This document shows, piece after piece, positions 1,729 to 14,389 of a DNA stretch of 64,000 nt. How positions within the stretch are numbered: position 1 is the first letter of the stretch; every line of letters begins with the position of its first letter. The notes under the pieces were generated by a model, which saw only the letters and a list, made by a program, of their open reading frames with translations, was not told the DNA's origin and made no database searches. The position numbers were made by a program, and so were the translations under genes. This stretch comes from Alphaproteobacteria bacterium (GTDB taxonomy: Bacteria > Pseudomonadota > Alphaproteobacteria > RF32 > CAG-239). The DNA lies in contig JAQWBS010000003.1 in the NCBI GenBank assembly GCA_028706255.1, positions 1 through 64,000 of the forward strand, read 5' to 3'.

Positions 1729-2253
1729 ATGATTGGTAGATTTAATAAAAATCATAAAAACTGGATTTTGTTTCTTTCTCTCGTGATGATTGCTCTTGGT
1801 GTATATGTTTGGTTTCATCCAGTTGGGGCAATGATGGCTTTGGCGCTTTATCTCGGAATTGCCTTTATTGGCGTTGGTGTGTGCTATTTATGGGCATATA
1901 GCCATTGGAAAAACGCTTGGGATTTAGCATTGGGCATTCTTGACGTTTTAGTTGGGTTGGTCTTTGTTTCAAACTTGGGTTTGACTGCAGAAACAATTCC
2001 TCTTTTCTTTGCATTTTGGACGCTTTTTATTGGCGTGATGCAACTTACCGCAGCCTTTGATATGAAAGAAGTTGGCATTAAAGATTGGAAGCTCATCGCA
2101 GTTGCAGGGCTTCTCAGTATTCTCTTTGCCTTTGTCATTCTCTCTATGCCAATCGTTGGTGCATTGACAATTACTATTTTGATGGGCTCTTATCTCATCT
2201 TGTATGGCGTTGTCGGTCTGTTTGAATATAAACTGATTAGAGAAATGAAATAA
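1729..2253 (+). CDS. HdeD-like (DUF308) inner-membrane protein
   Basis: A 174-residue protein made almost wholly of hydrophobic segments, about six membrane helices in three hairpin pairs, as in the HdeD/DUF308 family. Family members are linked to acid resistance in enterobacteria, but their molecular role is unclear. Cytoplasmic loops are short and basic (FNKNHKNW at the N-terminus, EYKLIREMK at the end). A strong GGAGG site lies eight bases before ATG 1729. The gene has its own leader with an inverted repeat and a terminator directly after it, so it is probably monocistronic. Confidence 0.75.
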   Translation: MIGRFNKNHKNWILFLSLVMIALGVYVWFHPVGAMMALALYLGIAFIGVGVCYLWAYSHWKNAWDLALGILDVLVGLVFVSNLGLTAETIPLFFAFWTLFIGVMQLTAAFDMKEVGIKDWKLIAVAGLLSILFAFVILSMPIVGALTITILMGSYLILYGVVGLFEYKLIREMK

Positions 2254-2263
2254 GTTTTTTGAA

Positions 2264-2295
2264 AAGAGGAAGAATTGCTTACTTCCTCTTTTTTT
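2264..2295 (+). terminator. Intrinsic terminator after the HdeD-like gene
   Basis: Perfect 9-bp stem AAGAGGAAG (2264-2272) with CTTCCTCTT (2282-2290), a 9-base loop and a run of T residues. It separates the membrane-protein gene from the structured RNA candidate that follows. Confidence 0.85.
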
Positions 2296-2302
2296 AATTA
2301 TT

Positions 2303-2588
2303 TATCTTGCAATTTATCATAAAATCTTTAGTGTTAATAACAGCTGTTATGCGTTTTAGTATAGCAGTTAGACGCAAGTCGGAGCCTTAGAAAGCTCTTA
2401 TGTAACACGGTGTTGGATATAACATCGATAGTTGTTTTTTTAAAAACAATAGAGATATCCCCGATTTGTTTTATGGTCGGGGTGGTTTTGACGTATGTTC
2501 AGAAGCTTCGGCTTTAAAGGTTAAAACGGTCATTTTGTTACATATGATTTTCTAACACTCCGGCCACCTTTTTTGAGGTGGTCTTTTT
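2303..2588 (+). ncRNA. Candidate structured RNA, copy A (unrecognised family)
   Basis: About 280 bases without a plausible ORF that fold into many hairpins. Stems seen: TGCGT 2350-2354 with 2372-2376; GAGC 2382-2385 with 2394-2397; outer stem TGTAAC 2401-2406 with GTTACA 2537-2542. Enclosed by it are GGTGTT/AACATC (2409-2425), TTGTTTTT/AAAAACAA (2432-2449), CCCCGA/TCGGGG (2459-2482) and a C(UUCG)G tetraloop hairpin (2503-2514). A terminator ends the unit at 2561-2588. Its first 50 bases (TCTTGCAATTTA and beyond) are clearly homologous to those at 5251, where a second unit has the same plan. I do not recognise it as tmRNA, 6S, SRP or RNase P RNA. The 5' end is uncertain because no clear promoter is seen. 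Confidence 0.55.
2561..2588 (+). terminator. Intrinsic terminator of structured RNA copy A
   Basis: Stem GGCCACC (2562-2568) with GGTGGTC (2577-2583), one G-U pair, followed by TTTTT. It lies upstream of the kinase start at 2623, so the RNA ends before that gene, or the hairpin acts as an attenuator for it. Confidence 0.8.
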
Positions 2589-2622
2589 GTTTGTTTTACA
2601 AAAGATTATGGAGATAAATCGT

Positions 2623-3345
2623 ATGATTAAAATTGAAAAAGAATTGTCAAAGAGATATGGAGAAAAAATTGAAGTTTTTCCAATTTGGCAAGGAGATTAT
2701 AAAGATATATATAAGTTTTCATTAAAAAACAGAGCGTTAGTTGTTGCTGTGAATAAGAAAAAATCAATGAGCAGAAGCTATCGCACGGTTCTTTCTAATG
2801 CACTACAACAGTGGCTTTTTTTGAAGGGTTTGAATGTTCCAGAAGTTTATGATTTTTTTGAAGTTGGAGAGTTGCTTTTCGCTGTACATTCTTACATTGA
2901 TGGGAAAACATATTCTGATTTTAAGGAACATCAGCTTTATTTGATTGGTCGAATTGTTGCTCAATTACATTCGCTGACTTATCAAAATAGACCTTATGTG
3001 AAAGTTTCTAAAAAAGCATATTTCTTCTGTGGCGCCATAGAACTTTTGTCAAGAGCGTTGAGAAATGTAAAAAACCTTATTACAGATAAGTTTTATCGAA
3101 CGCTTCCTGTCGGCATTTGTCATCTTGATTTAACAGCTAATAATTTTCTTTTTAATGAAGAAGATGTTTGGTTGATAGATTTTGATAAACAAAAAAGACA
3201 ACCATATGCTTATGAAATTTATAGATTTCTGAAAAATGATATTTCACGAATAAATAGAACTCTATTTATAAAAGGTTACGAATCTGTTCGAGTGTTAAAT
3301 AATAAAGAGAAAAACTATCTTGCTTTTAAAGGAATAGAATTTTAA
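2623..3345 (+). CDS. Small APH/LPS-kinase-like phosphotransferase
   Basis: A 240-residue protein with the kinase-like fold. The catalytic loop is HLDLTANNFLF (HxDxxxxN) and the metal-binding motif is LIDFD, about 20 residues later, as in aminoglycoside/choline kinases and the WaaP/Kdo-kinase group. It lacks a clear glycine-rich loop, which is normal for these families. The substrate cannot be told; sugar or lipid headgroup kinases are as likely as antibiotic kinases. I chose ATG 2623 because a GGAG site precedes it and the longer reading starts inside the upstream terminator. The gene follows structured RNA copy A by 35 bases and has its own terminator. Confidence 0.6.
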   Translation: MIKIEKELSKRYGEKIEVFPIWQGDYKDIYKFSLKNRALVVAVNKKKSMSRSYRTVLSNALQQWLFLKGLNVPEVYDFFEVGELLFAVHSYIDGKTYSDFKEHQLYLIGRIVAQLHSLTYQNRPYVKVSKKAYFFCGAIELLSRALRNVKNLITDKFYRTLPVGICHLDLTANNFLFNEEDVWLIDFDKQKRQPYAYEIYRFLKNDISRINRTLFIKGYESVRVLNNKEKNYLAFKGIEF

Positions 3346-3350
3346 TAAAA

Positions 3351-3388
3351 GAAAGGATTTAGCCTTGCGGTTAAATCCTTTCTTCTTG
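3351..3388. terminator. Bidirectional terminator between kinase and flavodoxin genes
   Basis: Stem GAAAGGATTTA (3351-3361) with TAAATCCTTTC (3372-3382), loop of 10 bases, A-rich before and T-rich after. It serves the plus-strand kinase gene and the convergent minus-strand flavodoxin gene. Confidence 0.75.
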
Positions 3389-3410
3389 TCGTAGAGGATT
3401 TTTAGATTGC

Positions 3411-3836
3411 TTAATAATTAGCGATTTCTTTCGCAAAGTCGACACAGCGGGTTTCTTCCACGCCGTCTGGGAAACCTAAAACAGTGAGTGGTTCATTGAT
3501 GACTTTTGCACCAGCTTTTTCCATTCTCTCTTGCCATGCACGCATCCATTCACCATCACCCCAACCATAAGAACCGAAAAGGGCTAGTTTCTTACCAGAA
3601 ACATTTTTTTCTGCAGAATTTAAAAATTCAAGCACTTCTGGAACATCAATTTCTTCTTCTCCCATTGCAGGAGCACCTAAAACCAAAACTTCAGATTTCT
3701 GAATGATGTCTTGAGGGGCGTTTTCAAAGGTGTGTTCTGAAACTTCTTTGCCAGAACTTTTAAGCTCTTGAGCAATGAGTTCGGCCATTTTTTCCGTGTT
3801 TCCTGTTCCGCTCCAGTGGATGACAGCATAAGTCAT
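3411..3836 (-). CDS. Flavodoxin
   Basis: A 141-residue short-chain flavodoxin, a soluble FMN electron carrier that replaces ferredoxin when iron is short. The FMN phosphate loop SGTGNTEKMA lies at residues 8-17, followed by LGAPAMGEEE and GSYGWGDGEW, the loops that flank the isoalloxazine ring. I chose ATG at 3836 (AGGAG six bases upstream) over the longer reading from 3863. A near-consensus Fur box lies 40-58 bases upstream, fitting induction by iron starvation. Confidence 0.9.
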   Translation of the reverse strand: MTYAVIHWSGTGNTEKMAELIAQELKSSGKEVSEHTFENAPQDIIQKSEVLVLGAPAMGEEEIDVPEVLEFLNSAEKNVSGKKLALFGSYGWGDGEWMRAWQERMEKAGAKVINEPLTVLGFPDGVEETRCVDFAKEIANY

Positions 3837-3875
3837 AAATTTTCTCCTAAAAAAGAATTGCATTTCTTATATATT

Positions 3876-3894
3876 AATAATGATAATTATTATC
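3876..3894 (-). promoter_or_regulatory. Fur box upstream of flavodoxin
   Basis: AATAATGATAATTATTATC matches 17 of 19 positions of the classic GATAATGATAATCATTATC Fur box. It sits 40 bases upstream of the flavodoxin start, in the promoter zone. It could also influence the divergent gene at 4024, 130 bases away. AT-rich sequence raises the chance of a random match, but the fit and the flavodoxin context together are persuasive. Confidence 0.7.
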
Positions 3895-4023
3895 AAGTCA
3901 ATATATATTTTAAAATGCACAATGTTTTTTTAGAGCTATCTTTCGATAGGATATTTTTTCGAGAAGTAATGTGCTAAACTATAAGGGTTAATTACATTTA
4001 TTCACATTATTAATTTTATTGTT

Positions 4024-4413
4024 ATGAAAAAATATTTTGCTTCATTAAGAAATATGTTCTTATTTTTGACAATTGTTGATTTGCTTGCTCTTGTTGTTGT
4101 TTATGAGGGAGATTCTTCTCTTTTAGCTATCGTTTTCATAGCGACAGTAACTGTTGCACTTCTCTCTGGTCTTGTTTATGATTCAATAGGATTTTCAACA
4201 ACAAAAGGCAACGAGAAATTATATAGTTCGTTGATGATTGCTGTGCAGACATTTTGCCTCTATTTTGTTGTCATCATTGCTGTTAGCTATTTTACAGAAG
4301 TTGATGCTTATACAGAGATGAAATCTGTTTCAAGACTTGTGAACAAGTTTCTGTGTCTTGCTTTGGGGTTTGCTCTTGGCATAAAAGCTTTTGCAGGCGT
4401 TCAAAAGAAGTAA
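4024..4413 (+). CDS. Small four-helix membrane protein, unknown
   Basis: I do not recognise this 129-residue protein. It shows about four hydrophobic segments (residues about 10-28, 33-52, 70-88 and 110-122) with a basic start (MKKYFASLRN) and end (GVQKK), so it is an inner-membrane protein. No clear ribosome site precedes ATG 4024. It is divergent from the flavodoxin gene and followed at once by a strong terminator, so it forms its own unit. Confidence 0.6.
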   Translation: MKKYFASLRNMFLFLTIVDLLALVVVYEGDSSLLAIVFIATVTVALLSGLVYDSIGFSTTKGNEKLYSSLMIAVQTFCLYFVVIIAVSYFTEVDAYTEMKSVSRLVNKFLCLALGFALGIKAFAGVQKK

Positions 4414-4421
4414 AAAATCGG

Positions 4422-4457
4422 AAAAGACACTATCTCTCGGGATAGTGTCTTTTTTTA
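4422..4457. terminator. Bidirectional terminator between membrane protein and ung
   Basis: Perfect 13-bp stem AAAAGACACTATC (4422-4434) with GATAGTGTCTTTT (4441-4453), a 6-base loop and flanking A and T runs. It lies between convergent genes. Confidence 0.9.
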
Positions 4458-4458
4458 T

Positions 4459-5124
4459 TTACCATTCAATTGGGGTAAGGTAATGTGCTTTGAGATAATC
4501 ATTTGCTTTAGAAAAATGATGATTACCAAAGAATCCACGATGTGCCGCCAGAGGAGACGGATGAACACTTTTGAGAATTAAATTTTCTTGAGGGTTCACA
4601 AATGCCGCTTTCTTTTGGGCATAGCTTCCCCAGAGGAGATAAACAATGTTTTTACGTTGTGAGGCGAGGGTGTGAATGACCGCATCTGTAAAGGTCTCCC
4701 AACCTTTGCCGGTGTGAGAAGCGGCTTGATGTGCTTGAACGGTGAGTGTTGAATTAAGTAGGAGAACGCCTTGTGCTCCCCATTTGCTTAAATCGCCTTG
4801 GGTGAGGCTTTTATGCCCCAAATCGCTCTCAATCTCTTTATAAATATTTTGCAAAGAAGGTGGCAATGCAACGCCTTGTTGCACTGAAAAACAAAGCCCG
4901 TGAGCTTGGTTTGGTTCGTGATATGGGTCTTGTCCAATGATGACAACTTTGACCTTATCTAAAGGACAAAGATTGAAAGCATTAAAGATATTTTTTGCAG
5001 GAGGGAAAATCTTTTTTCCTGATTGATATTCTTCCCGAACAAAATTTGTGAGCTTGATAAAATAGTCTTTCTCAAATTCAGAACTTAAAGCTTGCTTCCA
5101 ACTTTCTTCAATCTTGACGTCCAT
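4459..5124 (-). CDS. ung: Uracil-DNA glycosylase
   Basis: Family 1 UDG removes uracil from DNA and starts base excision repair. All signature motifs are present: the water-activating loop GQDPYHEPNQAHG, LLLNSTLTV, the LLWGSYAQ strand and the HPSPLAAHRGFFG leucine-insertion loop. Length is 221 residues, normal. I chose the ATG at 5124 because the AAGGAT site sits seven bases ahead of it; the ATG at 5130 is too close to that site. It is monocistronic. Confidence 0.96.
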   Translation of the reverse strand: MDVKIEESWKQALSSEFEKDYFIKLTNFVREEYQSGKKIFPPAKNIFNAFNLCPLDKVKVVIIGQDPYHEPNQAHGLCFSVQQGVALPPSLQNIYKEIESDLGHKSLTQGDLSKWGAQGVLLLNSTLTVQAHQAASHTGKGWETFTDAVIHTLASQRKNIVYLLWGSYAQKKAAFVNPQENLILKSVHPSPLAAHRGFFGNHHFSKANDYLKAHYLTPIEW

Positions 5125-5250
5125 TTTCATATCCTTTTACACACCATTTTCTCTTTCATAACCTATTACGATTTTTAAGAAAAGTAAATGCTTTGTGAGT
5201 TTTTTTATTCAAATACAATTTATGAAGTTATGCAATCATAACTTAATTTA

Positions 5251-5512
5251 ATCTTGCAATTTAGATAAAATTCTCTAGTCTTTATCTTAGCTATTATAAA
5301 TTTTTATAATGGTTAGCATCAGAGATGATGCGGGGTGTCGTAACCCTTTTATACAAGCAGTCATTTAGCATAATGACTCAAATTCTTATGCCGATTTCTA
5401 TCCTATGGGTGGATGTCGGTGAATAAGGCTTAGGTCGAATAAACCGAGCCGTCAGCTTGTATGCGGTTACGAACATCCACTCGCCAGATTTTTTTTTGGC
5501 GAGTTTTGTTTT
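5251..5512 (+). ncRNA. Candidate structured RNA, copy B (unrecognised family)
   Basis: Second unit of the RNA seen at 2303. The 5' block (ATCTTGCAATTTA, ATAAAATTCT, AGCTATTAT) aligns with copy A. A hairpin GCATCA/TGATGC (5316-5331) has a GAGA tetraloop. The outer stem CGTAACC (5339-5345) with GGTTACG (5465-5471) takes the place of TGTAAC/GTTACA in copy A. Inside are ATACAAGC (5351-5358) with GCTTGTAT (5455-5462), AGTCATT/AATGACT (5359-5378), CCGA plus ATCC with GGAT plus TCGG (5391-5419), and GGCT/AGCC (5427-5450). A terminator closes the unit. Sequence inside the outer stem has diverged, but size (about 133 versus 142 bases) and layout are kept. Confidence 0.55.
5480..5512 (+). terminator. 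Intrinsic terminator of structured RNA copy B
   Basis: Perfect 7-bp stem CTCGCCA (5480-5486) with TGGCGAG (5497-5503), followed by TTTTGTTTT. It begins nine bases after the outer stem of the RNA and ends 30 bases before the lipoprotein start. Confidence 0.85.
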
Positions 5513-5541
5513 AACTTAACAAAATAAAGGATGTTAATCGT

Positions 5542-5967
5542 ATGAAAAAACTAGTACTAATTTTAATTTTAGGGATGTTTGCAGGGGTTTTGAGTGGTTG
5601 TTCAACAATCATGAGAGATGGCAAACAAGTTGTGTCGGTAAAATCTAATACGGATAGAGTAAATATAAAAATTGCCGATAAGTTTGGAGAAACAATATTT
5701 GAAGGACAAACTCCGGTTACAACAACTCTGAAAACTTCTGCAGGAGGATATTTTGATCCAGAAAAATATACCGTCACCGCAACAAAAGAAGGATATGCTT
5801 CGCAAACAGTGAGAATAGACTGGCATGTGAGTAAGTGGTATTATCTCGGAAATTTGGGTTTTGGTGGTCTGATTGGATATCTGATTGTCGATCCAGTTTC
5901 AGGACACATGTATTATCTTGATGAAAATGTCTATGTGAATATGACTCCTTTGGCTTCAAAAAGTTAG
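5542..5967 (+). CDS. Small lipoprotein with PEGA-like domain
   Basis: A 141-residue protein with a lipoprotein signal: MKK, a hydrophobic stretch and lipobox LSGC with the lipidated Cys at residue 20. The mature part has a beta-rich region with GQTPVTTTLKTSAGG and YTVTATKEGYASQT, like the PEGA repeat that follows an N-terminal anchor, then a hydrophobic LGFGGLIGYLIVDP segment. The +2 residue is Ser, which suggests outer-membrane sorting. Function is unknown. It lies 30 bases after structured RNA copy B and 11 bases before the Cys-rich peptide gene, so the pair is likely one operon. Confidence 0.65.
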   Translation: MKKLVLILILGMFAGVLSGCSTIMRDGKQVVSVKSNTDRVNIKIADKFGETIFEGQTPVTTTLKTSAGGYFDPEKYTVTATKEGYASQTVRIDWHVSKWYYLGNLGFGGLIGYLIVDPVSGHMYYLDENVYVNMTPLASKS

Positions 5968-5978
5968 GGAGAAAATAG

Positions 5979-6188
5979 ATGAAAAAAATCATTATAGGCT
6001 CCTTTGCTTGCTTCATGTTTGTTTGTCAAATGAAGCTGGGATATCTTTCATATCAAAAACCAAATATGACAATGCTAGAAACATATAATAGACGAGGATG
6101 TTGTTCTTGGCATAATGGTGTCTGTGGCTGTAGTAGGGGGAGAGCTTTGTGTTGTGATGGAACTTTAAGCCCAAGTTGTGGCTGCTGA
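5979..6188 (+). CDS. Small secreted Cys-rich peptide
   Basis: A 69-residue protein with a basic start and hydrophobic segment (possible signal peptide, residues 1-16). The C-terminal block is Cys-rich: RRGCCSWHNGVCGCSRGR, then ALCCDGTLSPSCGC. The CCSxHxGVCGC and CCDGTLSPxC pattern recurs in short bacterial exported proteins of unknown role; the paired cysteines could bind metal or form disulfides. It directly follows the lipoprotein gene and is followed by a terminator. Confidence 0.55.
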   Translation: MKKIIIGSFACFMFVCQMKLGYLSYQKPNMTMLETYNRRGCCSWHNGVCGCSRGRALCCDGTLSPSCGC

Positions 6189-6404: not shown

Positions 6405-6431
6405 AAGACGTGAGGATGATGAGAGGTTGTA

Positions 6432-6571
6432 TTCGGGAGTAGAGCGCACTTTGTTTGCTCCAGTTCGGCTCTGGGCTTTGCCCACCGGCAGTCTTTCGTC
6501 TGCCTGAGCCTCCTAGTGAACCCCCTCTTTCGGGGTTTCAAAACGTCTGCTCGCAAATTACCATTAAAAAA
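6432..6571. repeat. Hairpin-rich direct repeat, unit 1
   Basis: A 140-base unit repeated 177 bases further on with only a few differences. It contains successive hairpins: GGAG with CTCC around a GAGC/GCTC stem, GGGC/GCCC, GGCAG/CTGCC and ACCCC/GGGGT. The unit ends in CAAATTACCATTAAAAAA. Open frames on either strand are by-products of the repeat. The 37-base spacer to unit 2 holds an ACACACC/GGTGTGT hairpin. Confidence 0.7.
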
Positions 6572-6608
6572 ACACACCCTAAAGGTGTGTTGAGTTTGGA
6601 TTAGCTCG

Positions 6609-6749
6609 TTCGGGAGTAGAGCGCACTTTGTTTGCTCCAGTTCGTCTCTGGGCTTTGCCCACCGGCAGTCTTTCGTCTGCCTGAGCCTCCTAGTGAACCC
6701 CTTTTTTCGGGGTTTCAAAACGTCTGCTCGCAAATTACCATTAAAAAAA
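6609..6749. repeat. Hairpin-rich direct repeat, unit 2
   Basis: Second copy of the 6432 unit. Differences are few (for example TCTC for GCTC near the first hairpin, and a longer T-run before CGGGG), and the hairpins are kept. It ends about 60 bases before the first intrinsic terminator preceding the prophage. It may be a non-coding mobile repeat or a structured RNA. Confidence 0.7.
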
Positions 6750-6808: not shown

Positions 6809-7068
6809 GCCTTATTTTTTATGGTGGTAATGTGTAGCAGGGTTAGCGTTATTGCTTTGCTTCAAAACTCCCTGTTTTTATCTTTGTGTCCGCACCCAAT
6901 TTTCCCCATTATTTTTCATTTTTTAATACACGAATCCCGTAATCCTTTGGCATATCCGCCACATATTTCCCCATATTTTCCACCCTTTTCGTAATAGATT
7001 TAGAGCAGATTTATCTGTTTTTCCGCGCTATGTTTTTCCTGTGTATAACCCAACAACAGGAGCATAAA

Positions 7069-7284
7069 ATGACCCCCTTTACACTTTCACAAGATGACCG
7101 TTGCCTTAAAACTTCGGAAGCCGCCGAGTATCTTGGCCTATCTCAAAAAACACTTCAAATGTATCGCTACGATGGAATCGGGCCGGCGTTTGTTCGGTTC
7201 GGAAAAACCGTGCGTTATCGTCTATCTGACATAAAGGCATGGCGCGACAGCCGTCTTTGCAATCCCGGCAAAAAAGAAAATTAG
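7069..7284 (+). CDS. AlpA/excisionase-like helix-turn-helix protein
   Basis: A 71-residue MerR-type winged-helix DNA-binding protein of the HTH_17/AlpA group. It shows the signature LKTSEAAEYLGLSQKTLQMYR, then GPAFVRFGKTVRYRLSDIKAWRDSR, the wing and last helix. Such proteins direct excision or activate the integrase gene of mobile elements. ATG 7069 has a CAGGAG site; the longer reading from 7030 lacks one. It is the first gene of the prophage and lies 105 bases before the integrase start. Confidence 0.85.
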   Translation: MTPFTLSQDDRCLKTSEAAEYLGLSQKTLQMYRYDGIGPAFVRFGKTVRYRLSDIKAWRDSRLCNPGKKEN

Positions 7285-7294
7285 CGACACGCTA

Positions 7295-7337
7295 TTTTTT
7301 AGCTGGACTTTCAAAAATATGTCCGGCAGATTGCCAA
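7295..7337 (+). repeat. Leader repeat 1, before integrase
   Basis: A 43-base segment (TTTTTT, GCTGGACTTTC, TCCGGCAGATTGCCA) repeated with few changes at 8795. It contains the inverted repeat GGCA-GAT-TGCC. It lies 52 bases before the integrase start, so it may be an operator or leader element. It overlaps no clear coding frame. Confidence 0.55.
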
Positions 7338-7388
7338 TCCAATCGCTGGAAAACCCTTGGTTTTCCGCCAAAACGAAAGGAAAATAGA

Positions 7389-8765
7389 ATGCAAATAAAA
7401 TGCCTATACTTTAAGAAAAAACTGACGGCGGAATTTTTGGAGCGTATAAAATCCGATAACGATTTACAGATAAGCGACACAGAAGTTCCCGGATACCACC
7501 TGCGCTACTCAACCAAAACGGGACGCAAAGTTTTATATCTCAACTACACGCTCCGCTTGGACGCAATGCGAAAACAGCGTAATTTGAAACTGGGTATGTT
7601 CCCCGAAATATCCGCGCCCATTGCCCGCGCCGAAGCCATCAAGTTTCGCGGGCAAATACTGAACGGCATAGACCCTATGCTGGAACGCCAGCAACGCCTG
7701 CGCCAAGCGATGGGCGAGCAGGAAAAACAAATCCCCCTTAAAACCATTATGGAAAAGTATTTGGAAGAACATTCCAAACCGCTTAAAAAGGCCGGCACTT
7801 CCCGGCGCGAATTCCAGCTTGCCCGAAAGTATGTAATCCCTATGATGGGCAGTGTTCCGATAAACGAGATAAATGTTCGCCACCTTGAAAAAATGCACCT
7901 GACCGTTGGCGAACATACGCAGGTTCAAGCGAACCATTGCCTTATGTTCTTATCGTATTTTCTAAACTGGTGCGAAAAGCAGGAGTATCGCACCCTTGGC
8001 ACTAACCCCGTCCGCCTTATCCGCAAGTTCAAGACCAAAGGCCGCGACCGCGTTCTTTCGGACGAAGAATATCAACGCGTCTTTGAAGCGATGGACTTGG
8101 GGCGGCGCACCAACCTGCTGAACCCTGTTGGCTTTGATATTTTGGCTTTCATAATCTTTACAGGTTGCCGTTCCAGCGAAGCGAAAAAGCTGACTTGGGA
8201 CGAAGTCGATTTTGATAACAGTATCCTGCGCCTAAAAGACAGCAAGACTGGCGCAAAATCCATTCCTATCAGCAGTATTGCACTGGACATTATCAAAGCC
8301 GCCCTGCCCAAAAAGACCAGTTCCACTTCCCCTGTATTTCCAAACACGCACGGCAAAGCCTTTCCCGACGAGGGGCTTGCTAAGCATTGGGAGTTCATCC
8401 GCGAACACGCGAAATTGGAAAATGCTAACATTCACGACCTGCGCCACTCGTTCGCAACTACGGGAAGCATGACGGGCGAAAACATTGCCGTTATCGGCAA
8501 GGTGCTTGGGCATAGCACGATAGCCACAACCAGCCGCTATACCCATATCAACAACATCAAGGGAATTGAAGTTGCCAACAACATTGCCGAGCGCATAGCG
8601 AAAAAAGCAAAGCTGAACAAACAACCGACGGCGCAAAAACTTATGGAAATGCTGGACGGCGACGACGCGGAAACCGAGGTTGAAACGCGCGGTCGCGGGC
8701 GGAAGAAAAAAGACCCGACCGCCGCCCCTAAAAAACGCGGTCGGCCGAGCAAAAAGAAAAGTTAA
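7389..8765 (+). CDS. int: Tyrosine-type integrase (P4 integrase group)
   Basis: A 458-residue site-specific recombinase that inserts and excises the prophage. An N-terminal DUF4102-like arm-binding domain (residues about 10-100) is followed by a core-binding domain and the catalytic domain. Catalytic residues visible are FTGCRSSEAKKLTW (first Arg), IHDLRHSFATT (HxxR) and LGHSTIATTSRYTH with the Tyr nucleophile. The C-terminus is a lysine/arginine-rich tail (GRGRKKK, KKRGRPSKKKS) resembling AT-hook motifs, which is unusual. I chose ATG 7389, preceded by an AAAGGAA site; the upstream extension overlaps the HTH gene. Confidence 0.93.
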   Translation: MQIKCLYFKKKLTAEFLERIKSDNDLQISDTEVPGYHLRYSTKTGRKVLYLNYTLRLDAMRKQRNLKLGMFPEISAPIARAEAIKFRGQILNGIDPMLERQQRLRQAMGEQEKQIPLKTIMEKYLEEHSKPLKKAGTSRREFQLARKYVIPMMGSVPINEINVRHLEKMHLTVGEHTQVQANHCLMFLSYFLNWCEKQEYRTLGTNPVRLIRKFKTKGRDRVLSDEEYQRVFEAMDLGRRTNLLNPVGFDILAFIIFTGCRSSEAKKLTWDEVDFDNSILRLKDSKTGAKSIPISSIALDIIKAALPKKTSSTSPVFPNTHGKAFPDEGLAKHWEFIREHAKLENANIHDLRHSFATTGSMTGENIAVIGKVLGHSTIATTSRYTHINNIKGIEVANNIAERIAKKAKLNKQPTAQKLMEMLDGDDAETEVETRGRGRKKKDPTAAPKKRGRPSKKKS

Positions 8766-10307: not shown

Positions 10308-11624
10308 ATGAAAAGGCAGGCATTACAAGAGCTTATCAGGTGGAAAAACCGACCCGCGCACAAACCTCTTATAATTCAAGGGGCGCGGCAAGTTGGCAAG
10401 ACTTGGATTATGAAAGAGTTTGGTCGCACCGAATATGAAAACATCGCTTATATTTGGTTTGAAAAGAACGAGCGTATGGCGGCATTGTTTTCCGGTGATA
10501 TGGATACCGACCGCATATTGTTGGGACTAGAAGCCGAAGTCCAGCATAAGATAACGCCCGGCAAAACACTGATTATTTTTGATGAAATACAGGCTTGCCC
10601 GAATGCTTTGACCGCCCTTAAATACTTTAATGAAAATGCCCCGCAATATGATATAGTTGCGGCCGGAAGTTTGCTTGGCGTGTTCTTGCACGAAGGGGTT
10701 TCCTTCCCTGTTGGCAAGGTAGAGTTTATGAATCTCTATCCAATGAACTTTTGCGAATTTTTAGACGCAATGGGCGAAGAAAGGCTTTGCGAATTATTGG
10801 CAAAGCAAGATTGGGAAATGGCCAAGGTATTCAAAGACAAATACATATATTACTTGCGTCTGTATTTTTATATCGGCGGTATGCCCGAAGCTGTTTCGCA
10901 GTTTATAAAAACCAAAGATTATGAAGCGGTGCGCAAAGCGCAAAAAGATATACTTGCCGCGTATAAAGAAGATTTTTCCAACCATGTTCCTAAGGCTCAT
11001 ATTCAAAAAGTCGCACAAATTTGGGATAGCGTTCCATATCAGCTGGCAAAAGAAAACAAAAAATTCGTATATTCGGAAGTTCAAAGGGGCGCACGCGCCA
11101 ACACTTATGAAACCGCGTTGGAATGGCTTATCAAAGGCGGTCTTATTCACCGCGTTTCGCGCGTATCAAAGCCCGCGATTCCGCTCAAAGGCTATGCCAA
11201 CGCCAGCGGCGCATTCAAGTTGTTTATGGTTGATGTTGGCTTGCTGTCCGCCATGTCCAAGGTTGATGTCCGCGCCTTGCTCGAAGGCGACGCACTATTT
11301 ACAGAATTTAAGGGCGCATTGACCGAGCAGTTCGTCTGCCAAGAGCTGCAAACAATGATGGACGATATGGATATAGCATACTGGGCGAATGAAAATCCGG
11401 CCCGCGCCGAAATAGATTTTATCTTGCAACTGGGACGGCAAATTATCCCGCTAGAAGTAAAAGCGGGAGCAAACTTAAAAGCAAAGAGCCTTTCGGTGTA
11501 TCGCGAAAAGTTTAGTCCAAAGGTCGAAGTCCGAACCTCACTGGCGGATTATAAAAAGACGGATAATTTGTATGATATACCGCTGTATGCGCTAGGCTAT
11601 CTAAAAGAAATAATTGAAGAATAA
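10308..11624 (+). CDS. AAA ATPase with DUF4143 domain
   Basis: A 438-residue protein with an N-terminal AAA_14 ATPase (Walker A GARQVGKT at residues about 22-29, Walker B TLIIFDEIQAC, sensor VAAGSLLGV) and a C-terminal DUF4143 domain. The latter includes a PD-(D/E)xK-like stretch AEIDFILQL, PLEVKAG. Members are common on mobile elements and often thought to act as regulated ATPase/nuclease modules; the role is not established. It starts ATG 10308 with a GGAG site and precedes hsdR by 11 bases, so it is the first gene of the restriction operon. Confidence 0.85.
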   Translation: MKRQALQELIRWKNRPAHKPLIIQGARQVGKTWIMKEFGRTEYENIAYIWFEKNERMAALFSGDMDTDRILLGLEAEVQHKITPGKTLIIFDEIQACPNALTALKYFNENAPQYDIVAAGSLLGVFLHEGVSFPVGKVEFMNLYPMNFCEFLDAMGEERLCELLAKQDWEMAKVFKDKYIYYLRLYFYIGGMPEAVSQFIKTKDYEAVRKAQKDILAAYKEDFSNHVPKAHIQKVAQIWDSVPYQLAKENKKFVYSEVQRGARANTYETALEWLIKGGLIHRVSRVSKPAIPLKGYANASGAFKLFMVDVGLLSAMSKVDVRALLEGDALFTEFKGALTEQFVCQELQTMMDDMDIAYWANENPARAEIDFILQLGRQIIPLEVKAGANLKAKSLSVYREKFSPKVEVRTSLADYKKTDNLYDIPLYALGYLKEIIEE

Positions 11625-11635
11625 AGGAAGAAAGC

Positions 11636-14389
11636 ATGGCATTCAACGAAGATACGAGGGTAAAAATACCGGCAATCCTGACGCTTACGCGTCTTGGATA
11701 TGGTTATTTGTCGTTGAAAGACCGCACGGATATTGACCCGCAAACAAACATTTTCAAGGATATTTTCTTTGATTCTTTGCGCAAACTTAATCCAAACACC
11801 GCTGATGAAGAATTACAAAAGTTCTTTCTTAAAATCCAAACTATGCTTGATTATGAAGATTTGGGAAAGGCATTTTATGAGCTTTTAACAAGCGGCGCTG
11901 GTATAAAATTGATTGACTGGGAAAAACCACTTCGCAATACTTTGAATGTTTGCACAGAACTGACTTGCGGGAACAAGGACGAAGATAGTTTCCGCCCTGA
12001 TATAACGTTGCTTATCAATGGAATGCCGCTAGCGTTTATAGAAGTTAAGAAACCTAATAATCGCGAAGGTATTATTGCGGAACGCACTCGTATCAATGAC
12101 CGCTTCAAAAATCGCAAATTCCGTCGTTTTATTAACATTTCCCAAATTCTGTTATTTTCAAACAATATGGAATATGAACAGGACGATACAGACCCAATAC
12201 AAGGCGCGTTCTATGCCGCAAGCAGCAAGGGCAAGGCATTTTTCAATCAATTCAAAGAAGAAAAAGACAATAAAGCCCGCCTATTCGGTATGTTGAAGGA
12301 TGAGAATGACCACATAGAGAACGAAGTCTTGAAAGACAATAACTATGCTACAATGAAGTATAGCAAGGAATTTGAAACCAACAAACGCCCCGACAGCCCT
12401 ACTAACCGCGCCATTGTTTCTCTATTTGCGCCGGAGCGGATTTTTGAATTGCTCCGCTATGGATTTGCCTATGTTGAATATGACGACGAAGATGGTTTGC
12501 ACCATTTGGAAAAGCATATCATGCGCTATCCGCAATTTTTTGCCAGTAAAGCAATCCAATCAACGCTGGATAGTGGTAAAAAGCGTGGAATTATATGGCA
12601 TACGCAGGGTTCCGGCAAAACAGCGTTGGCATATTTTAGCGTGCGCTGGTTGACGGATTATTTTGCAAAAAAGAATACTATTCCACAATTTTATTTCATT
12701 GTGGACAGGATAGATTTGCGCACGCAGGCAGGAAACGAATTCAACATTCGCGGATTAAAAGTCAATAGTATTGAAAGCAAAGAAGATTTTATCAAGCATT
12801 TGAAGCGCAAGGCTACGCGTTCCGGCAATTCCGGCGAACAAGAAATAACTGTTTTGAATATCCATAAATTCTCGGAAGACGCGCGGGCGACAACCCAAAA
12901 AGATTATGATATAAACACGCAACGGGTGTATTTTATTGACGAAGCCCATCGCAGTTATAGTCCGGCAGGAAGCTTCCTTGCCAACCTTATACAATCCGAC
13001 CCTAATGCTATCATTATATCCCTAACAGGAACGCCGCTTTTGGATAAAGGCGAAAAACGGATTGCCAGCACGGAAATCTTTGGGAAATACATTCATAAAT
13101 ACTATTACGACCAGTCCATATCGGACGGTTATACTTTACGCCTGATACGCGAAGAGATAGAAAGTAAATACAAGTTAAAACTGAAAGAAATCTTTGAGAA
13201 AATCCAAGTTCCCAAAGGCGATACCCGTATCAAGCAAATTTACGCGCACCAGAATTTCTGCGCTCCTCTTTTGGAATATATCGCGGAAGATTTGCGCAAA
13301 AGCCGTATCCAGCATAATAACGACACTATCGGCGGAATGGTTGTTTGCCATAGCTCGGAACAAGCGGAAATGTTGTTTGGATTATTCAAAAAAGAATATG
13401 AAGGCAAGGCGACCGACGCGCATATACCAAATACCGCCGCACTGATTTTGCATAATGCAGATGATAAAGCCACGCGCAAAAACTATATCAAGAGCTTTAA
13501 GAATGGCAAGATTGACCTATTATTCGTGTTTAATATGCTTTTGACGGGTTTTGACGCGCCACGTTTGAAAAAACTATATCTCGGCCGCGTCATCAAGGAA
13601 CATAATCTGTTGCAAACGCTGACCCGCGTCAATCGTCCTTACCAAGGCTTTCGTTATGGCTACGTTGTAGATTTTGCCGATATTAAGAAAGAGTTTGATA
13701 AGACAAATCGGGCATATTGGAAAGAATTGCAGACCGATTGGGGTGAAGATATGGACGGCTATAAAAACCTGTTCAAATCCGCCGAAGAAATTGAGCAAGA
13801 TATTAAAGAAATCAAGGATAAATTATGGCTTTTTGACACATTGAACGCCGAAGTTTTCCAACAACAAATCAGCGAAATCAAAGAAAAGAAAGACCTGTTG
13901 AATCTGCGTAAAGCATTACAGCTGGCGACGGAACTTTATAACATTATCCGATTAAACGGCTATGAAGAATTATTAGGCAAGTTGGATTTCAACCAATTCA
14001 AGCGTTTGCTGAATGAAGTAGAAAACCGCATTGGGATTATCAATCAACGTGAAGCCTTGCAAAATGGGGAAGATATTACAGGGCTTTTGAATGAAGCGTT
14101 GGAAGATTCAATCTTTGTTTTCAAAAAAACGGGCGAAAGCGCGCTGGATTTAGCAGCGAATGGCTTAAAAGATTTACTGCGTAAAACGCGCGAAGCGATG
14201 GGGCATAATGTGGACAAGAAAGACCCATCGTGGGTATCTTTGAAGGAAGAACTGGAACGACTACTGCGCGATAAAAATTGGGAAGAAGCCGAAGGAGCTG
14301 ATATAGAAGAAGGCACAAAAATTTTGACAGGCATATATGGACGCATTGCGGAATTGAATCGCAAAGACGCTCAATTATTGGTCAAATAA
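11636..14389 (+). CDS. hsdR: Type I restriction enzyme R subunit
   Basis: A 917-residue motor-nuclease subunit that translocates and cuts DNA in the HsdR2M2S1 complex. It has an N-terminal nuclease with RPDITLL then FIEVKK (residues about 120-136), Walker A HTQGSGKT (about 320-327), DEAH box FIDEAHRS (about 435), TGTPLLD and a late helicase motif LTRVNRPYQGF. Length is somewhat short for the family. It is followed directly by hsdS with no hsdM between or anywhere in the window, which is unusual because HsdM is needed both for assembly and to protect host DNA. Confidence 0.95.
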   Translation: MAFNEDTRVKIPAILTLTRLGYGYLSLKDRTDIDPQTNIFKDIFFDSLRKLNPNTADEELQKFFLKIQTMLDYEDLGKAFYELLTSGAGIKLIDWEKPLRNTLNVCTELTCGNKDEDSFRPDITLLINGMPLAFIEVKKPNNREGIIAERTRINDRFKNRKFRRFINISQILLFSNNMEYEQDDTDPIQGAFYAASSKGKAFFNQFKEEKDNKARLFGMLKDENDHIENEVLKDNNYATMKYSKEFETNKRPDSPTNRAIVSLFAPERIFELLRYGFAYVEYDDEDGLHHLEKHIMRYPQFFASKAIQSTLDSGKKRGIIWHTQGSGKTALAYFSVRWLTDYFAKKNTIPQFYFIVDRIDLRTQAGNEFNIRGLKVNSIESKEDFIKHLKRKATRSGNSGEQEITVLNIHKFSEDARATTQKDYDINTQRVYFIDEAHRSYSPAGSFLANLIQSDPNAIIISLTGTPLLDKGEKRIASTEIFGKYIHKYYYDQSISDGYTLRLIREEIESKYKLKLKEIFEKIQVPKGDTRIKQIYAHQNFCAPLLEYIAEDLRKSRIQHNNDTIGGMVVCHSSEQAEMLFGLFKKEYEGKATDAHIPNTAALILHNADDKATRKNYIKSFKNGKIDLLFVFNMLLTGFDAPRLKKLYLGRVIKEHNLLQTLTRVNRPYQGFRYGYVVDFADIKKEFDKTNRAYWKELQTDWGEDMDGYKNLFKSAEEIEQDIKEIKDKLWLFDTLNAEVFQQQISEIKEKKDLLNLRKALQLATELYNIIRLNGYEELLGKLDFNQFKRLLNEVENRIGIINQREALQNGEDITGLLNEALEDSIFVFKKTGESALDLAANGLKDLLRKTREAMGHNVDKKDPSWVSLKEELERLLRDKNWEEAEGADIEEGTKILTGIYGRIAELNRKDAQLLVK

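Follow-up and report, generated by a model that had tools for sequence, protein, structure and literature searches.

Putative antisense-RNA leaders built like phage P1 c4 in uncultured gut Alphaproteobacteria

The closest described systems are found in the immI region of phages P1 and P7, where the elements follow one another in the order a1, b1, antisense RNA, a2, b2 and start codon (Rfam C4, RF01695, and c4-a1b1, RF03163). The P1 record lists a1, b1, c4, a2, b2 and icd in this order and notes that C4, at a2/b2, represses icd-ant translation; excerpts of PMC5320573 describe how RNase P matures C4 at a GGW and how its segments a' and b' act. According to the same excerpts, the C4-derived Group 1 sRNAs of Acinetobacter baumannii are c4-type RNAs that occur in several chromosomal copies and are processed at GGW out of a longer transcript. 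sRNA-Xcc1 (RF02221), which is kept separate from C4 and c4-a1b1 both in the literature and in Rfam, was mapped in Xanthomonas as an 88-base RNA (PMC2996969) and was reported in 2025 to lie upstream of symE and to be carried by integron cassettes (PMC12444791); the title of Chen et al. 2011, as cited in that paper, calls it a trans-acting sRNA. Our literature search found no paper linking sRNA-Xcc1 to C4, and no report of such a regulator in uncultured gut Alphaproteobacteria.

Here we compare with these systems two units, A and B, at the start of contig JAQWBS010000003.1 of Alphaproteobacteria bacterium GCA_028706255.1 (lineage RF32; CAG-239), of which positions 1-64,000 of the forward strand were analysed (64,000 nt, hereafter the window). 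The comparison suggests that the units belong to a large, hitherto undescribed family of antisense-RNA leaders in gut bacteria, whose members apparently can fold across the start of the gene that follows, are built like P1 c4 and stand mostly before cell-surface genes. On this reading C4, c4-a1b1 and sRNA-Xcc1 would be joined into one architecture, and the c4 principle would extend from phage immunity to many surface genes of uncultured gut Alphaproteobacteria; the exact base pairs are given below and are open to test.

Two units and their place in one family

Reading of the sequence places unit A at 2303-2588 and unit B at 5251-5512, with predicted folds of -91.2 kcal/mol (z -7.4 against shuffles) and -98.7 kcal/mol (z -9.4), respectively. 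Aligned directly, the two have a 5' block in common (78% identity across ~57 bases) and only scattered identity beyond it. The first-pass annotation, which had proposed two divergent copies of one unrecognised structured RNA, was right about this block and about the terminators closing both units, which a terminator scan places at 2562-2588 and 5479-5508. It had also taken the block as the beginning of each unit; the block is alignable, but judging from its sequence (2307-2334 and 5254-5281) it most likely represents the promoter side and lies outside the folded core, even though a promoter scan called the TTGCAA...TAGTNT block of neither unit. The system in turn extends past the terminator, into the ribosome-binding site of the next gene. 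The elements, all on the plus strand, are as follows.

Unit A
2307..2334, +, probable promoter TTGCAA-16 bases-TAGTGT (sequence; aligned relatives have TTGAC/TATCCT at the same place)
2342..2380, +, two 5' hairpins ahead of the core (fold; the second is kept in relatives)
2382..2397, +, hairpin P1, with a1 as its loop, 2387-2393 (P1 100% paired, with covariation)
2400..2407, +, b1, the 5' strand of P2 (P2 98.8% paired, both-side changes in 8/8 pairs)
2408..2427, +, hairpin H1, whose loop 2415-2420 pairs with 2455-2460 (alignment helices 4 and 5)
2475..2565, +, c4-like antisense domain (outer stem, A-type model match, sub-threshold sRNA-Xcc1 match): outer stem 2475-2484/2556-2565, H4 2485-2527, P5 2529-2548 with b' 2536-2543 in its loop, a' 2549-2555
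2562..2588, +, intrinsic terminator, overlapping the 3' arm of the outer stem (scan; U-tract in 31/31 A-type copies)
2609..2626, +, target region, from the Shine-Dalgarno sequence 2610-2613 to the start codon 2623-2625 (pairs with 2540-2562)
2623..3345, +, gene for an APH/choline-kinase-like phosphotransferase (Pfam APH 4.2e-13, Kdo/WaaP 2e-5)
Unit B
5254..5281, +, probable promoter TTGCAA-16 bases-TAGTCT (sequence)
5289..5331, +, two 5' hairpins ahead of the core (fold, alignment)
5333..5346, +, hairpin P1, with a1 as its loop, 5337-5343 (P1 98.8% paired)
5351..5358, +, b1, the 5' strand of P2 (both-side changes in 8/8 pairs)
5359..5378, +, hairpin H1, whose loop 5368-5373 pairs with 5386-5391 (alignment helices 4 and 5)
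5407..5482, +, c4-like antisense domain (sRNA-Xcc1 alignment, B-type model match): outer stem 5407-5416/5473-5482, P5 5449-5466, b' 5455-5462, a' 5467-5472
5479..5508, +, intrinsic terminator (scan; U-tract in 94/96 B-type copies)
5528..5545, +, target region GGATGTTAATCGTATG, Shine-Dalgarno sequence to start codon (16 bases pair with 5460-5478)
5542..5967, +, gene for a small lipoprotein without a Pfam match, of a type (CATIMR..) shared with the genes behind many other copies

Units A and B belong to a single RNA family, though diverged: a covariance model built on either type finds the other. The B-type model (R1) and the A-type model (R2), of 31 sequences each, score 145.3 bits on unit B (5332-5485) and 180.8 bits on unit A (2381-2565); the B model, trained without A, matches unit A at 2382-2568 (28.3 bits, E 8e-6), and the A model matches about 20 B-type copies with identical boundaries. 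The earlier view that inner sequences differ while the plan is kept thus needs amending: the plan is indeed kept, with covariation, but the inner sequences are homologous as well.

The family is widespread in its order. A family-wide DNA search found the B type in 66 of 126 genomes and the A type in 90, and the covariance models recovered A in 128 and B in 125 of 153 genomes of the order (~82%), often in several copies, with at least 16-19 matches in the richest genomes (lower bounds, since scoring covered the top candidates of each genome). Most of the named records are MAGs of gut and rumen Alphaproteobacteria, Azospirillum sp. CAG:239 among them. The two models match 28 and 23 of 385 genomes in a class-wide sample, from about 20 families and including genomes of 3.8-5.1 Mb with a single copy, while in a sample of the phylum the matches of the A model are confined to Alphaproteobacteria. 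Thirteen viral contigs carry a family copy, all 13 confirmed by model; the matches among phage records are two unannotated fecal phage fragments only. In the roe-deer MAG RGIG4812 (JAFUTN01) at least 15 B-type copies occur, many of them ahead of BspA-type leucine-rich repeat secreted proteins (loci L087, L091, L099, L100, L104, L112, L120, L124, L130, L132, L137, L142, L154 and L156).

The source genome itself contains a second A-type copy ahead of a glycosyltransferase (C11:264479-264699) and a second B-type copy (C3:26837-26961). Directly behind the latter (L018 6030-5715, minus strand) there is no intact gene; complementarity to the tail persists in the sequence past its terminator (CGGGTGTTTGAAAAG), as might be left by a decayed target gene.

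Both types share one plan, in which the P1 loop pairs with the tail, P2 joins the stretch behind P1 to the P5 loop, and the H1 loop pairs with the strand ahead of H3, followed by H4, P5 and the tail. The A alignment has ten helices, several of them pseudoknotted, with 95.1% of cells paired and both-side changes in 38 of 63 pairs; the B alignment follows the same plan with 92.6% paired and both-side changes in 20 of 45 pairs, and 0 of 500 shuffles were as good in either case. It is important to note that the structures were drawn by hand from the same alignments used for counting, which is partly offset by slid-structure controls on both alignments, where pairing falls to near 40% (~42% when the A structure is slid by one base). 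Covariation extends to P1, P2, H1, H4, P5 and the pseudoknots. The helix between the P1 loop and the tail is 96.8% paired in type A, with both-side changes in 4 of 7 pairs, and the corresponding a1:a' of type B is 96.4% paired, with both-side changes in 3 pairs. The 3' arm of H3 and the tail can pair over 10 bases in every A sequence (310/310 cells, 31 sequences); this outer stem can form in all copies tested, with at least 8 of 10 positions in 173, and its 5' GG and the 3' RCC are present in most copies.

This plan changes how the outer stems first described for the two units are to be understood. Both helices exist, but they are not equivalent: TGTAAC/GTTACA in A is P2 (b1:b'), and CGTAACC/GGTTACG in B is the pseudoknot between P1 loop and tail (a1:a'); each unit has both. 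Covariance models, related genomes and Rfam, part of the check proposed in the first-pass annotation, yielded homologues with covariation and no Rfam family at cut-off, so that a structured RNA family of this lineage is borne out as such, and the earlier reading as a whole is partly supported.

Resemblance to sRNA-Xcc1 and C4

At cut-off, an Rfam scan of the whole window returned no match except tRNAs, and the family as such corresponds to no known Rfam family. To that extent the RNA was rightly called unrecognised, but its 3' half aligns end to end with sRNA-Xcc1. With a permissive threshold, positions 1-87 of the sRNA-Xcc1 model align with 5407-5490 of unit B (33.8 bits, E 1.8e-4, in a 251-base stretch), untruncated and with the outer stem of the model formed by the 3' arm of H3 and the tail. 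The gathering cut-off of 53 bits is reached neither by unit B, nor by unit A (2476-2572, 20.7 bits, sub-threshold), nor by the C3 copy of the same genome (40.9 bits). sRNA-Xcc1 matches overlap those of the family models in G000:C3 and G608:C9. The 87-base model is exactly the 3' domain of the family: outer stem, H4, P5, a' and the RCC end.

The Rfam entry differs in describing this 3' domain alone. True sRNA-Xcc1 loci, above cut-off in 39 of 398 genomes of the phylum, were read by hand; in several of them (among others L305, L306, L312, L320, L331 and L332) the same 5' half is found upstream, unannotated, with a P2 strand and a P1 hairpin whose loop is the complement of the tail. The a1/b1 strands recur near the start codons of sRNA-Xcc1 loci; at L332, for example, the start-codon region (CCGAAAAGGAGCAACAAG) echoes the P1 loop CCGAAAA and the P2 strand CAACAAG. 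R1 weakly detects two true loci (22.4 and 19.8 bits), and genes begin 23-53 bases behind most of them. A plasmid search with one sRNA-Xcc1 locus gave no match. The true members differ from the window in what they precede, their downstream proteins including SymE, Bro-N, KilA-N, P22_AR_N and Rha among others (phage antirepressors included), whereas the window genes encode a phosphotransferase and a lipoprotein; Pfam found no symE behind unit A or B. sRNA-Xcc1 has been discussed as a virulence sRNA that acts in trans. The present observations indicate that its 88 bases form the 3' domain of a self-contained system controlling the next gene.

C4 (RF01695) has no match at cut-off in the window, nor any up to E 10 in 2200-5600, and neither R1 nor R2 matches P1 c4; because there is no direct match either way, the tie to C4 runs through sRNA-Xcc1 and the shared plan. 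The P1 c4 leader shares sequence with 6 of 30 sRNA-Xcc1 leaders, at E 5e-5 to 0.007, and a reversed control gave no such match. The chain in sequence is thus weak between C4 and sRNA-Xcc1 and sub-threshold but end to end between sRNA-Xcc1 and B, with A joining via B.

In plan the likeness is close. The Rfam C4 and c4-a1b1 models have the same helices as A and B, and like C4 both units have an outer stem, a hairpin, a second hairpin with b' in its loop, and a single-stranded a'. Upstream lie a1 and b1, complementary to a' and b' in helices that covary (P2 and the P1-loop helix), with a1 in a hairpin loop closed by GGG/CCC as in c4-a1b1, and a GG stands at the position of the mapped RNase P site of C4. 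The two 5' hairpins of unit A (2342..2380) are the counterpart of the first hairpin in c4-a1b1. Counterparts of a2/b2 occur at the ribosome-binding site of the next gene, strongly for B and modestly for A alone. A and B seem to differ from P1 C4 in carrying an intrinsic terminator between antisense domain and gene, and they do differ in their targets, chromosomal surface/envelope genes rather than icd-ant; no icd or antirepressor gene lies behind unit A or B. The A. baumannii Group 1 sRNAs differ in being from Gammaproteobacteria and recognised by the Rfam C4 model, and the excerpts of PMC5320573 do not describe their copies as each lying ahead of a surface gene. Two other Rfam entries have no match in the window: c4-2 (RF02944), which has the c4 name in the Rfam 15 paper, and isrK (RF01394), whose model gives a partial match to the P1 leader between a1b1 and the terminator (L333 48230-48311; 35.1 bits, cut-off 50), so that isrK is possibly the 5' element of such a leader. 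The outer stem followed by ACCA also brought a tRNA-like or tmRNA-like element into consideration, but an RNase P substrate of the C4 kind was preferred.

Downstream genes and the proposed mechanism

Across 31 A-type, 99 B-type and 49 other copies (the last from the wider class and mixing lineages), the median distance from the core to the best start codon behind it is 48-51 bases; the distance falls within 40-60 bases in 94 of the 99 B-type and 24 of the 31 A-type copies. A U-tract separates core and gene in 125 of 127 copies of the two types together, and in 28 of 47 in the wider class. Simple N-terminal patterns mark most downstream proteins as lipoproteins, signal-peptide proteins, OMP-like MKNKLL proteins or prepilins, and Pfam matches extend the list to BspA leucine-rich repeats, phosphotransferases, porins, glycosyltransferases, capsule synthesis, EcoRI-type methylases and HTH regulators.

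The antisense domain is complementary to the start region of its own locus. When duplex energies with own and with other loci's start regions were compared over 2000 permutations, the own pairing was equalled in 0 for type B, 1 for type A, 7 for other Alphaproteobacteria and 0 for the sRNA-Xcc1 group (own -18.3 versus swapped -13.8 kcal/mol). Taken singly, the duplex of unit B with its target (-17.7 kcal/mol) is as strong in 0 of 1000 shuffled sequences, while that of unit A (-13.4 kcal/mol) is modest, with 53 of 1000 as strong.

Given the architecture, covariation, gene linkage and locus-specific complementarity to the ribosome-binding site found here, we think it probable that each unit is a c4-type antisense-RNA control system that represses the gene immediately following it, the two being separated by an intrinsic terminator. 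Transcription would start upstream and produce the 5' decoy, a1 in the P1 loop and then b1, followed by an antisense domain of ~75-90 bases, in which a long outer stem encloses two hairpins, the second with b' in its loop, and a' lies ahead of the 3' arm. Most transcripts would then end at the terminator, and read-through would yield the mRNA, with a second decoy copy, a2/b2, at the Shine-Dalgarno sequence and start codon. The a'/b' segments could pair either with a1/b1 of the precursor or with a2/b2, in which case the ribosome-binding site would be covered and translation blocked. By analogy with P1, RNase P may cut at the GG with which the outer stem begins and so free the antisense domain from a1/b1 as an active repressor. 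We infer a repression, in cis or in trans, that some signal would relieve.

The features that invite another reading are the multi-pseudoknot fold, the overlap of terminator and outer stem, and a highly conserved non-helical core in type A (GGAUAU, GUAUGUUCAGA..UUUAAAG): the 5' half might sense a metabolite or protein, riboswitch-like, its fold setting termination against read-through and a free against a sealed ribosome-binding site, with no antisense RNA released. Sets of surface genes would suit such a common signal, but the targets (phage antirepressors, SymE, DNA methyltransferases, lipoproteins) seem too varied for one metabolite, the 3' domain recurs as sRNA-Xcc1, which Xanthomonas produces as an RNA of 88 bases (PMC2996969), and a1/b1 are repeated at the ribosome-binding site, the hallmark of C4; we regard this cis attenuator as unlikely. 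An independent small RNA gene, in line with the small RNA family first proposed for the units and with the view taken for sRNA-Xcc1, would act in trans on distant targets and merely lie upstream of unrelated genes. The terminator after each unit, the trans-acting label in the title of Chen et al. 2011 (cited in PMC12444791) and copies without an adjacent gene, such as that in G000:C3, speak for it. It is made quite improbable by the constant start-codon spacing in almost all of ~180 copies and by the locus-specific pairing with the adjacent start region: each unit is a leader physically tied to the next gene, whose start codon lies ~50 bases behind the core.

There is some indirect evidence for the mobile RNA element of the first-pass annotation, in the several copies per genome, the relatives on phage contigs and the integron cassettes with sRNA-Xcc1 (PMC12444791), but no transposition machinery or element ends were found. 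The same evidence could be taken for a mobile DNA element or recombination site in which the folded strand matters, as in attC, rather than an RNA. That we consider hardly credible, since the helices tolerate G-U pairs in an RNA-like manner, a U-tract terminator follows, the Shine-Dalgarno region is complementary, and neither terminal repeats nor linkage to a recombinase was seen.

If the units are c4-type control systems, it is tempting to speculate that gut Alphaproteobacteria have expanded the c4 design into a network with cross-talk, in which expression of surface lipoproteins, pilins, porins and LRR proteins would be coordinated or made mutually exclusive via antisense RNAs. We offer this tentatively. 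A genome may contain up to a dozen or more similar antisense domains, whose a' and tail appear to fit many sibling start regions besides their own; such a network requires swapped pairs to be stronger than shuffled ones, and for type B they are (-12.3 versus -9.4 kcal/mol).

Some copies precede an integrase-like or DNA methyltransferase-like protein (L146 4188-5177 and L289 2934-3923), so the control may also be used on mobile or defence genes. In the window, a small cysteine-rich ORF with a possible signal peptide and no Pfam match (5979-6188) lies directly behind the lipoprotein gene of unit B. Further downstream are two near-identical direct repeats of ~135 bases (6430-6567 and 6605-6745), followed by ORFs resembling an excisionase (7030-7284), a tyrosine integrase (7239-8765), an ATPase (10308-11624) and a type I restriction subunit (11636-14389); together these look like the edge of an integrated element.
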